Shown here: positions 3,623 to 63,879 of the stretch, in pieces
How positions within the stretch are numbered: position 1 is the stretch's first letter
Layout of the letters: the number at the start of each line of letters is the position of its first letter
IMG/VR virus record: IMGVR_UViG_3300043444_000502
Location: 103,600-167,599 of that record
Origin: a virus
Direction: 5' to 3' (one strand)
DNA: 64,000 nt
Made by a program: the position numbers and the translations under genes
Notes under the pieces: model-generated
Told to the model about the DNA's origin: nothing
What the model saw: the letters and a program-made list of their open reading frames with translations, nothing else
Databases searched by the model: none

Positions 3623-5340
3623 TGGCATCTATTATCTTTAAAACTGTACGATGGAAAAATTTCTTAAGTACAGGAGATCAATTTACAGAAATTCAATTGG
3701 ATCGCAACGATAGTACTCTTATCGTCGGTCAAAACGGCGCAGGTAAGAGTACGTTGCTTGATGCGTTATCATTTGGTTTATTTGGAAAACCATATCGTAA
3801 TATTCTTAAACCACAATTAGTTAATTCTATCAATGGAAAACAGTGTGTGGTTGAAGTTGAATTTAGTGTTGGTGCAGCAGAATTTAAAATTATTCGTGGT
3901 ATTAAACCAAACACTTTTGAGATTTATCAAAATGGTAAAATGATAAATCAAGATTCTAATACACGTGACTATCAAGCATTCCTCGAACAAAATGTTTTGA
4001 AGTTAAATCATAAATCGTTCCATCAAATTGTTGTCATTGGATCTGCTTCTTTTACTCCTTTTATGCAGCTTCCAACTGGACAACGTAGAACTATTATTGA
4101 GGAATTGCTTGATATTCAAGTGTTTTCTAGAATGAACCAAATTCTCAAAGAGAAAATGGCAAGACTGAAGGAACAAATTGCAGATGTTAATACACAACTC
4201 GAGCTTATTGGTGAAAAGATTAGATTACAAAACAAGTATATTTCCGATGTCGAATCACTTGCAAAAGACCAGATTCTTGATAAGCAGAATTCCATCGCAG
4301 ACTACCAGAATAGCATACGGAATTTACAAGACCAAAACTCTGAACTTTCGCAAAAGTTGGAGTTACTTATTCAACGACAAAAAGATCTCAAAGCAGTTAC
4401 AAATAAGAAACAAAAAATGGTCGGATTTGGAAGTAAGTTTGAATCTACCCTCAAGACATTGCAAGACGACAGAGCTTTTTTTGTGGAAAATACTTCTTGC
4501 CCAACCTGTTCTCAAGAAATATCTGCCGAAACACGGGAAAGCCACGTGCATCGATGCGATAATAAGATCGGGGAAATTACTCAAGGTATTGAGAAGCTCA
4601 AGGAAGAATTAGAAGTTGTTCTTAACCAAGAAACTTCATTAATGTCAGACATCGAATCATTTCAACAGTCTCAAATGGATATTGTTGCAAATAATGCTTC
4701 AATTTCTGCGCTGCAAAAAGCCATTGATAAATTAGAAAAAGAAATTTTAAATATTGAAGGTACTGATGGAGATGTTAGTGCAGCTCATGGTGATTTAAAA
4801 ATATTGCATGAACAAAAAGAAAAATTAGCTGAATTGAAGTTATCGCAAATCGATCAACAAAATTACAATCATATTGTAAATGAAATGTTGAAAGATACAG
4901 GTATAAAAACAAAGATTGTTAAACAATATCTACCAGTAATTAATAAATTAGTAAATCAATATTTACAAATCTTAGACTTTTTTGTATTATTCAACTTAGA
5001 TGAATCTTTCAATGAAACAATTAAATCTCGTCATCGCGATGATTTTTCTTATGCAAGTTTCTCTGAGGGCGAGAAACAGCGTATTGATTTAAGTCTACTC
5101 TTCACATGGCGTCAAATTGCCAAAATGAAGAATTCTGCTAATACAAACCTTCTAATCTTAGATGAAACATTTGATTCATCACTAGATAATGATGGTATTG
5201 ATAATCTAATGAAAATTTTAAACACAGTTACTGTTGATACAAATGTGTTTATTATTTCTCATAAAGGTGATGTGCTAGATTCTAAATTTAGACACAAAAT
5301 TGAATTTATTAAAGAACGAAACTTTTCAAGGATTAAATAA
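3622..5340 (+). CDS. 46: Recombination endonuclease subunit gp46 (Rad50/SbcC-like)
   Basis: 572 aa ABC-type ATPase that pairs with gp47. Walker A GQNGAGKST near residue 37; coiled-coil arms from about 165 to 450, interrupted by a zinc hook CPTC near residue 293; signature FSEGEKQRIDLSL and Walker B LLILDETFDSS in the last 100 residues. Codon use changes inside the coiled coil (about 4140-4600), with more C-ending codons than the flanks. Last base overlaps the start of the deformylase. Confidence 0.95.
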   Translation: MASIIFKTVRWKNFLSTGDQFTEIQLDRNDSTLIVGQNGAGKSTLLDALSFGLFGKPYRNILKPQLVNSINGKQCVVEVEFSVGAAEFKIIRGIKPNTFEIYQNGKMINQDSNTRDYQAFLEQNVLKLNHKSFHQIVVIGSASFTPFMQLPTGQRRTIIEELLDIQVFSRMNQILKEKMARLKEQIADVNTQLELIGEKIRLQNKYISDVESLAKDQILDKQNSIADYQNSIRNLQDQNSELSQKLELLIQRQKDLKAVTNKKQKMVGFGSKFESTLKTLQDDRAFFVENTSCPTCSQEISAETRESHVHRCDNKIGEITQGIEKLKEELEVVLNQETSLMSDIESFQQSQMDIVANNASISALQKAIDKLEKEILNIEGTDGDVSAAHGDLKILHEQKEKLAELKLSQIDQQNYNHIVNEMLKDTGIKTKIVKQYLPVINKLVNQYLQILDFFVLFNLDESFNETIKSRHRDDFSYASFSEGEKQRIDLSLLFTWRQIAKMKNSANTNLLILDETFDSSLDNDGIDNLMKILNTVTVDTNVFIISHKGDVLDSKFRHKIEFIKERNFSRIK

Positions 5341-5831: not shown

Positions 5832-5852
5832 TCATATACTTGCATAGGGCCT

Positions 5853-61757: not shown

Positions 61758-62294
61758 ATGAAAACAGTTGGAGATAAATTAGAGAAATTTGTTGTTACTG
61801 GTATCAATCCCGGCAGTGATCAGTTTTTTGACATTACAGAAGAATCATTTGAAGGTAAGTGGAAAGTTATCGTATACTATCCAAAGGACTTCACATTTGT
61901 TTGTCCTACAGAGATCGTAGCTTATGACAAACTATTCCAAGATTTTGCTGATCGTGATGCAGTTCTATTGACTGGTTCTACAGATAATGAATTCTGTAAG
62001 TTAGCATGGCAAAAACATCATGAAGATCTATCAAAGATCAAGCATATTCAATTTGCTGATACGCAAAGAGATTGGGATAAATCATTGATTGAGCAATTAG
62101 GCGTGTTCTATGCTCCTGCTGGTGCAGCGCTTCGAGCTACATTCATTATTGATCCAGACAATGTGATTCAACATGTTACCGTAAATAACTTAAATGTTGG
62201 TCGTTCACCAGAAGAAACTTTGCGTGTACTTGATGCTCTTCAAACAGGAGAATTATGTGCTTGTAATCGTACAGTCGGTGGAGAAACACTATAA
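61758..62294 (+). CDS. ahpC: Peroxiredoxin AhpC
   Basis: 178 aa 2-Cys peroxiredoxin. Peroxidatic Cys49 in DFTFVCPTE and a C-terminal LCACN pair (Cys167, Cys169) as in AhpC enzymes that are reduced by AhpD rather than AhpF. It reduces H2O2 and organic peroxides. Strong ribosome site (AAAGGA). One-base overlap with ahpD, so the two are made together. Confidence 0.93.
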   Translation: MKTVGDKLEKFVVTGINPGSDQFFDITEESFEGKWKVIVYYPKDFTFVCPTEIVAYDKLFQDFADRDAVLLTGSTDNEFCKLAWQKHHEDLSKIKHIQFADTQRDWDKSLIEQLGVFYAPAGAALRATFIIDPDNVIQHVTVNNLNVGRSPEETLRVLDALQTGELCACNRTVGGETL

Positions 62295-62872: not shown

Positions 62873-62998
62873 ATGAACAAATTTTCTATAACTTCCCCTA
62901 AAGCAAGAATGACTACATGCGGTCAGGCGAGCATTCGTCCTGAGACATCATGGTCATTAGGCTTTTATCACAATCTTGATGGAGGTCTAACGGGGTAA
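62873..62998 (+). other. Structured region / possible 41-aa ORF
   Basis: An ATG frame of 41 codons (MNKFSITSPKARMTTCGQ..., ending LDGGLTG) coincides with a nested RNA structure: ATGAC (62909-62913) with GTCAT (62953-62957), TCAGG-CGA (62923-62930) with TCG-T-CCTGA (62935-62943), and an outer CCCC/GGGG pair (62895-62898 with 62992-62995). No ribosome site precedes the ATG. It is either a stable RNA or a tiny gene; the strong terminator after it supports a discrete transcript. Confidence 0.4.
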
Positions 62999-63285: not shown

Positions 63286-63315
63286 ATGTACAAGATTAAA
63301 AAGTTATGGTAGAAT
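63286..63315 (+). promoter_or_regulatory. Promoter of the main tRNA array
   Basis: ATGTAC (63286-63291), 18 bases, TAGAAT (63310-63315), a one-base variant of the usual -10. Confidence 0.65.
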
Positions 63316-63328
63316 CTATCTTAACAAC

Positions 63329-63356
63329 TGATCGAAAGATCAACTGCTCTTTAACA
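63329..63356 (+). promoter_or_regulatory. rrn-type boxB/boxA antitermination-like site
   Basis: TGATC-GAAA-GATCA hairpin (63329-63342) followed by TGCTCTTTAACA (63345-63356), identical to the E. coli rrn boxA core and in the rrn order boxB then boxA. Located between the promoter and the first tRNA-Ser. Confidence 0.65.
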
Positions 63357-63371
63357 ATTTGGATTCTCTTT

Positions 63372-63463
63372 GGAAGCGTGGCAGAGCCCGGTTTATTGCA
63401 CCTGTCTTGAAAACAGACGATCGTTAACGCGGTCCGTGAGTTCGAATCTCACCGCTTCCACCA
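63372..63463 (+). tRNA. tRNA-Ser (UGA)
   Basis: 92 bases, acceptor GGAAGCG/CGCTTCC, anticodon loop CTTGAAA (TGA), a long variable arm as in all Ser tRNAs, T loop TTCGAAT, encoded CCA. Confidence 0.93.
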
Positions 63464-63702
63464 TATTTAATTGCATTAGGTTAGTAGCACCATTAGGTTG
63501 CTATATTGGTTCGAAGATGTTCGACGGAACACGCTGATATAGTTACATGAAAGATGGAAACGAAACTTTAGCTTGCGCTAAGGCTGAGACGGTGGTCACG
63601 ATGGAGTATGCTACACTGTAATGTGGAAATGAACTTATCGATAGACGATATCGTGAGAAGTGCTAGAAGCAAACGTTCATGACATCCTAGTGTAATTAAA
63701 TA
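63464..63702 (+). ncRNA. Large structured spacer RNA between two tRNA-Ser genes
   Basis: The ends 63464-63480 and 63686-63702 pair over all 17 positions (15 Watson-Crick, 2 G-U), so the element fills the gap between the two tRNAs almost exactly. Inside: GTAGCA hairpin (63484-63504), TGTTC-GACG-GAACA (63518-63531), CTTTAGC-TTGC-GCTAAGG (63566-63583), TCACGAT with ATCGTGA (63596-63602/63650-63656) and ATGAAC with GTTCAT (63629-63634/63675-63680); the last two cross, suggesting a pseudoknot or alternative folds. No protein frame is plausible. Comparable in place to the stable RNAs of the T4 tRNA cluster, but not recognised. Confidence 0.6.
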
Positions 63703-63703
63703 T

Positions 63704-63793
63704 GGTGAATTGGCAGAGAGGCTTATTGCGTTTGTTTGCTAAACAAAAGATCCTTCACGGGGTCCATAGGTTCGAATCCTATATTCACCACCA
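63704..63793 (+). tRNA. tRNA-Ser (GCU)
   Basis: 90 bases, acceptor GGTGAAT/ATTCACC, anticodon stem TTTGT/ACAAA with loop TTGCTAA (GCT), long variable arm, encoded CCA. Confidence 0.93.
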
Positions 63794-63838
63794 AGGCAAA
63801 TAGAGATCTTGTGGGTTCATCCACGTTCTCTCAACGTT

Positions 63839-63871
63839 TGTTAGTTTCAATGGGTGGTATAGAAACTAACA
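63839..63871 (+). ncRNA. Hairpin in tRNA spacer
   Basis: TGTTAGTTTC (63839-63848) pairs perfectly with GAAACTAACA (63862-63871) around a 13-base loop; a second hairpin with GTGG/CCAC and AGAGA/TCTCT lies just before (about 63802-63831). Possibly a tRNA-processing signal. Confidence 0.55.
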
Positions 63872-63879
63872 CTAATTTT

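Follow-up and report, generated by a model that had tools for sequence, protein, structure and literature searches.

The window that we analysed, 64 kb long, is the end portion of a virus record of 167,599 bp. Near its end, the gap between tRNA-Ser(UGA) (63372-63463, + strand) and tRNA-Ser(GCU) (63704-63793, + strand), which would be the next product of the same precursor, is filled by a structured RNA of ∼240 nt (63464-63702, + strand). The tRNA array crosses the junction of the record, with four tRNAs in the window and 24, with some overlap, in L003, the locus that carries the first bases of the same phage record. L003:1-276 overlaps the end of the window but is not identical to it: the two are strain variants that differ by point changes and by an indel of ∼80 nt between tRNA-Ser(GCU) and tRNA-Ala. 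The overlap implies a circularly permuted or terminally redundant genome. The ∼80 nt of the window (∼63796-63876) contain two hairpins and are missing from the strain variant at the opposite end of the record (L003:151-155). Just ahead of the array lies a 41-codon ORF (MNKFSITSPKARMTTCGQASIRPETSWSLGFYHNLDGGLTG, 62873-62998), followed by a terminator-like hairpin; it has a homologue in L084 (7406 onwards), may be related to a short ORF in L183 and is possibly a small peptide gene. In L003, a near-perfect 22-bp hairpin fills the gap between tRNA-Ile and tRNA-Cys (531-590), and a tRNA predicted by ARAGORN (5226-5300, labelled Pyl) has the anticodon CTA and may be an amber suppressor.

The original prediction, made from the sequence alone, had placed a 17-bp stem flush with the CCA of tRNA-Ser(UGA) and ending one base before tRNA-Ser(GCU). 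We found this stem as 17 unbroken pairs, two of them G-U (63464-63480/63686-63702), and it extends outward by pairing of CACCA with TGGTG (63459-63463/63703-63707) to give a closing helix of 22 pairs, P1 (63459-63480 with 63686-63707, + strand). The 3' CACCA of tRNA-Ser(UGA) is therefore part of outer P1, and the last four nucleotides of the 3' strand are the start of tRNA-Ser(GCU). The predicted folding energy of the window segment is −66.3 kcal/mol (z = −3.33), a value matched by 1 of 200 shuffles, and its homologue L084:7941-8151 folds with z = −5.75 (0 of 200). The covariance model R1, which takes in only the inner three pairs of P1, matches the window RNA at 63478-63688 with 133.3 bits (E 1e-32); this sequence is itself in the training set of R1.

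Homologues were found independently of R1, by pattern scans, in ∼43 other IMG/VR phage contigs, and clustering of the full-length copies at 90% identity gives 20 groups. A second phage, L084, was reached through a neighbouring gene and has the RNA between the same two tRNAs, and a pattern made from the P6 hairpin (described below) led to L094, which is 80% identical to L084 across 171 nt. A pattern of the conserved 3' half returned 32 stretches, 31 of them real (L086, L087 and L094 among them were already known), and a pattern of the 5' half, which did not demand the 3' motifs, added 13 loci. These loci are metagenomic and partly redundant, with Neff about 19, and the RNA is present once per record in the 12 records examined. 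Several candidates were rejected along the way. The pattern GTAATGTGGAAA...AACT by itself was too weak, giving 63 matches of which only the known L086 and L087 were real by blastn and tRNA checks, and a first P6 pattern had many matches inside apparent coding sequence. Two weak matches in INPHARED phages were dismissed as 30-nt chance matches; L201, the lone GTDB match with a looser pattern, is part of a radical-SAM-like gene and is not matched by the model. Apart from these, blastn gave no homologue in INPHARED phages or PLSDB plasmids, the strict pattern gave no match in GTDB genome contigs, and a model search gave no more copies in 28 further loci chosen for shared AhpD or tRNA genes (positives: the window, L003 and L084). 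Within the collections searched, the RNA is limited to phages, and we are nearly certain that it is a genuine conserved family.

The check for covariation among homologues, whose failure was to count against the original prediction, gave overwhelming support to the structure. In A3, a MAFFT alignment that was not fitted to any structure, 92.6% of the cells of the 65 proposed pairs are paired, compared with 34-40% in slid controls, and 46 of the pairs have changed on both sides. The covariation score is 0.381, against 0.157 when shuffled, and is not reached in any of 500 shuffles; an alignment fitted to the covariance model gives an agreeing result. De novo prediction by RNAalifold returns 57 pairs, 35 of them with double changes, mostly in the same helices, and adds a GUG/CAY pairing (P5a) and lower pairs of P3. 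Nearly all of the top-scoring covarying column pairs fall within the modelled structure, and none of them cross.

All elements of the conserved architecture are on the + strand. P1 has 21-22 of its 22 positions paired in 37 of 37 full-length array members, with double-sided change in 11 of 22 pairs, and the CCA of the tRNA is paired with UGG of P1 in nearly all copies. P1 encloses two arms. The first is based on P2, where GTAGCA-CCATT (63484-63494) pairs with GATGG-(AGTA)-TGCTAC (63600-63614) and 8 of 10 pairs show double-sided change in A3 (RNAalifold adds a U-G pair). It bears the long hairpin P3 (63497-63546; 63497-63508/63534-63546), whose tip stem (63518-63522/63527-63531, with a GACG tetraloop) contains the top covariation of the whole alignment, and the variable domain P4 (63547-63599). 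In most members P4 is a 3-bp hairpin with a 7-nt loop; four type II members (the window copy, L178, L179 and L183) have a larger domain in its place, which includes an additional hairpin (63566-63583 in the window). The second arm is based on P5b (63628-63634/63675-63681; double-sided change in 6 of 7 pairs), which spans 63628-63681 and encloses P6 and P7. P6 (CGATA-GACGA-TATCG, 63639-63653) covaries with 100% of cells paired, and P7 (GCT-AGA-AGC, 63662-63670), shortened in the window copy, has 5 bp in most members and double-sided change in 5 of 5 pairs. The arms are joined by the segment GUAAUGUG (63618-63625), which is invariant in all full-length members and whose GUG pairs with CAY at 63683-63685 to form P5a. 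As GUAAUGUG is also present in all seven full-length members that came from a pattern not demanding it, its conservation is not purely a product of the search.

The strong hairpins of the original prediction, at least four in number, are thus real and covarying. The same cannot be said of the two helices that it had proposed to cross. The one at 63629-63634/63675-63680 is supported as part of P5, but the other, 63596-63602/63650-63656, is not, so that a pseudoknot is not backed. The latter two segments are complementary in the window, yet they overlap the covarying P6 (63639-63643/63649-63653) and P2b (63600-63604); covariation support is lacking because the partner TCACG is confined to the four type II members and never varies there.

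Upstream of tRNA-Ser(UGA), the unit that starts with this tRNA is headed by a promoter-like site, TGTACA-17-TAGAAT (63287-63315, + strand), which is a consensus match only. The site is an instance of a phage-wide motif, CTATGTACAA-N∼13-GGTATAAT, which recurs some ten times elsewhere in the window. The motif was recorded at 5852, 8217, 31523, 44856, 50996, 51536, 60142, 63114 and 63285, and at 62115 on the − strand, and these repeats probably represent one regulon. Downstream of the promoter-like site, a boxB-like hairpin read from the sequence (TGATC-GAAA-GATCA, 63329-63342, + strand) stands immediately ahead of a boxA, TGCTCTTTAACA (63345-63356, + strand), which lies 28 nt ahead of the tRNA and fits the consensus GYTCTTTAANA (PMC5725501). 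Many other loci have a GAATTGAGAAATC / GATTGAGAAATCAATC hairpin at the equivalent place, and we verified the same boxA upstream of 16S in the sequence of the E. coli rrn leader.

A strict boxA within 45 nt upstream was found for 27 of the 38 tRNAs that precede the RNA and for 21 of 66 array-first tRNAs, but for only 1 of 414 other internal tRNAs (27/38 vs 1/414, Fisher p = 1.6e-33; the loci are partly redundant). Counted by independent cluster, boxA is present in 12 of 18, and a strict boxA is missing at the expected place in 6 of 18. Such boxA sites usually come with a sigma70-type promoter, and in many cases with a GAAA-loop hairpin, just upstream. In L171, which has no upstream tRNA, the boxA is directly ahead of the RNA itself. 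Two sequence features of an rrn-type unit are present, a boxA matching the consensus and a closing helix that, at 21-22 bp in the array members, exceeds the leader-trailer length of >17 bp required for 30S formation (PMC10250234). Taken together, the boxA, the promoter, the GAAA-loop hairpin and the match to E. coli rrn make the likeness to an rRNA unit specific at the level of sequence. By analogy, phages would seem to have taken over the rRNA antitermination leader for operons of tRNAs and structured RNAs; no report of this was found in the open-access literature searched.

Bacterial units for pre-16S and pre-23S likewise combine a boxB-like hairpin, boxA, a long closing helix and tRNAs in one transcript (PMC10250234), but the present unit is phage-encoded and its helix encloses an RNA of ∼200 nt unrelated to rRNA. 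That the RNA mimics host rRNA was considered and dismissed, as blastn gave no significant match to the E. coli rrn operon (16S/23S/5S), where none of the conserved motifs of the RNA occurs either. The fold had been called unrecognised, and this was borne out by comparison with the 4227 families of Rfam 15, none of which, including GOLLD, ROOL, HDV-like ribozymes, RNase P, group I intron and 6S, matches at the gathering threshold. With E up to 10, the matches in 63400-63760 were either of tRNA/tmRNA type, falling on the flanking tRNAs, or due to chance, and the copies in L084 and L094 gave nothing beyond tRNA-type matches. The RNA is undescribed in the open-access literature searched. The closest kinds are GOLLD/ROOL and the T4 RNAs rnaC and rnaD, which share its neighbourhood and not its sequence or fold. 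The likeness to the stable RNAs of T4 that had been proposed holds for placement only, as nothing in the T4 tRNA region matches the model above noise: the best match of R1 in T4 69500-73500 (cmsearch, filters off) has 4.9 bits (E 0.58) and is not at rnaC or rnaD. What the stable RNAs next to the T4 tRNA cluster do has, to our knowledge, yet to be established. T4 rnaC (species 1) and rnaD (species 2) are stable RNAs of ∼120-140 nt placed directly 3' of tRNA-Arg (AF158101), but both lack a long closing stem that abuts the tRNA. GOLLD and ROOL are structured phage RNAs of unknown function near tRNA islands, and GOLLD can be covalently joined to tRNAs (PMC12286853); the new RNA differs from both in sequence, fold and size, and has a 22-bp helix running straight onto the tRNA CCA together with a boxA leader. 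By every comparison made here the RNA family is new, as is its rrn-like unit within the open-access literature searched, while the wider class of structured phage RNAs near tRNAs is already known.

The position of the RNA relative to tRNAs varies. Its usual site is flush after the CCA of tRNA-Glu(UUC); other copies follow tRNA-Ser(UGA), as in the window, or tRNA-Gln, or lie ahead of tRNA-Glu or tRNA-Asp at the start of an array, and the gap between two serine tRNAs is an atypical site. Some copies (L171, L179, L183 and L094) have no upstream tRNA. The 86.6-kb record of L094 has no tRNA whatsoever, and there the RNA occurs by itself with a P1 that we read as ∼10 bp, compared with 21-22 bp in arrays. 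On this reading of the sequences, outer P1 is tied to the tRNA context, and the existence of a stand-alone copy in a tRNA-less record argues that the function of the core is not tRNA spacing only. P1-like stems also close other interiors in inter-tRNA hairpins (L175, L163, L178, L172, L176, L198, L191 and L185), and stems of at least 12 occur in 22 of 204 inter-tRNA gaps, compared with 0.6% in shuffles. These stems fit a common processing module, and the P1 sequence alone, being common to the shorter hairpins, could be a generic tRNA-spacer element.

We think it likely, though by no means settled, that this is a phage non-coding RNA of ∼180-240 nt, of a new family, that is produced in the manner of rRNA, excised from a tRNA precursor through P1 and active in trans; its excision, stability and function are inferred. 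The layout of promoter, boxA leader, tRNA and 22-bp closing helix fits processing from a tRNA precursor, although no RNA has been measured. The host NusB/S10 complex would load on boxA, and RNA polymerase so equipped could pass through the untranslated structured transcript as it does on rRNA; both recruitment and antitermination are inferred. P1, beginning within the CCA of the tRNA, would play the role of the pre-rRNA leader-trailer helix and nucleate folding. It would then be cut, with RNase III as the obvious candidate (no processing sites have been mapped), and cleavage would release both the tRNA, whose ends could then be trimmed, and the core, which would persist as a stable RNA of its own. 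The weakest inference is that the core acts in trans; if it does, it would most likely use the conserved joining segments to bind either a phage protein or part of the translation machinery, although no partner has been identified.

It is conceivable that the RNA is instead a purely cis-acting element of the tRNA precursor, in which P1 juxtaposes the 3' end of one tRNA with the start of the next and provides an RNase site, while the interior only aids folding and has no function once cut. The pairing of CCA with UGG in nearly all copies agrees with this explanation, as does the sharing of P1 with hairpins of unrelated interior (22 of 204 gaps, against 0.6% in shuffles). We nevertheless regard it as unlikely, since the interior is conserved far beyond the needs of a spacer, including the unpaired GUAAUGUG and loop residues, one copy resides in a record without tRNAs, and most adjacent tRNAs are just a few nucleotides apart and do without such an element.

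Kinship with the ornate RNAs GOLLD and ROOL, of which this would be a short relative assembling into an RNA-only complex, is brought to mind by their location near phage tRNA islands and their unknown function (PMC12286853), but is very improbable: the RNA is far shorter (many GOLLD members exceed 800 nt; PMC12286853), has no GOLLD or ROOL match with E up to 10, and its loops carry no obvious self-complementary kissing sequence. We give slightly less credence still to a ribozyme whose self-cleavage would trim the 3' ends of tRNAs in the way of theta ribozymes, which also abut tRNA 3' ends in phages (PMC10879173), although the RNA starts exactly at the CCA end as those associated with tRNAs do. 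Theta ribozymes have an HDV-like double pseudoknot and occur in gut phages, mostly with tRNAs lacking an encoded CCA. For the present RNA, we found no match to an HDV-like or other ribozyme family with E up to 10 and no supported double pseudoknot, and none of the top covarying pairs cross one another; the putative cleavage site would be buried within the 22-bp helix, and some copies have no upstream tRNA. The least credible reading is a small mobile element whose terminal inverted repeats form P1 by chance. A near-identical repeat does close different interiors, and the RNA is located after different tRNAs or alone, but each genome has a single copy, the compensatory changes in P1, including G-U pairs, preserve RNA pairing and not a DNA inverted repeat, and the interior covaries.

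Beyond the trans-acting RNA that we favour, one may speculate that large phages carry a "pseudo-ribosomal" set of unrelated structured RNAs that, together with tRNAs, use the host machinery for rRNA antitermination and folding (boxB-boxA and the leader-trailer helix). The present RNA would be the best conserved of the set and would form a stable RNP by which translation is retooled or protected in the infected cell. We hold this wider idea only tentatively and consider it more doubtful than otherwise. For testing, the family supplies a covariance model, ∼20 divergent clusters and a clear transcription unit.

Other structured RNAs were seen in the same arrays. A conserved inter-tRNA RNA of ∼150 nt (CATTGTTAAGTGTTATCAGGGTA...GATAACACTTAACAATG), with a closing stem of 17 bp, lies downstream of the main RNA in L161, L168, L175, L182 and L194. 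Another, RNA-B, is a structured RNA of ∼125 nt (CATTTGTTTTGCTGATGTAAGCC...GTCAGCAAAACAAATG) with a long closing stem of its own. Neither has an Rfam match, and RNA-B is a second new RNA family accompanying the main RNA. It is directly downstream of the main RNA in L160, L163, L166, L170, L177, L180, L181, L186, L190, L196 and L199. In the phage of the window it is found in the gap between tRNA-Glu and tRNA-Asp (L003:980-1099), where its closing stem has changed on both sides in a compensating manner. The motif CCCTGAGTAA is common to RNA-B and T4 rnaD.
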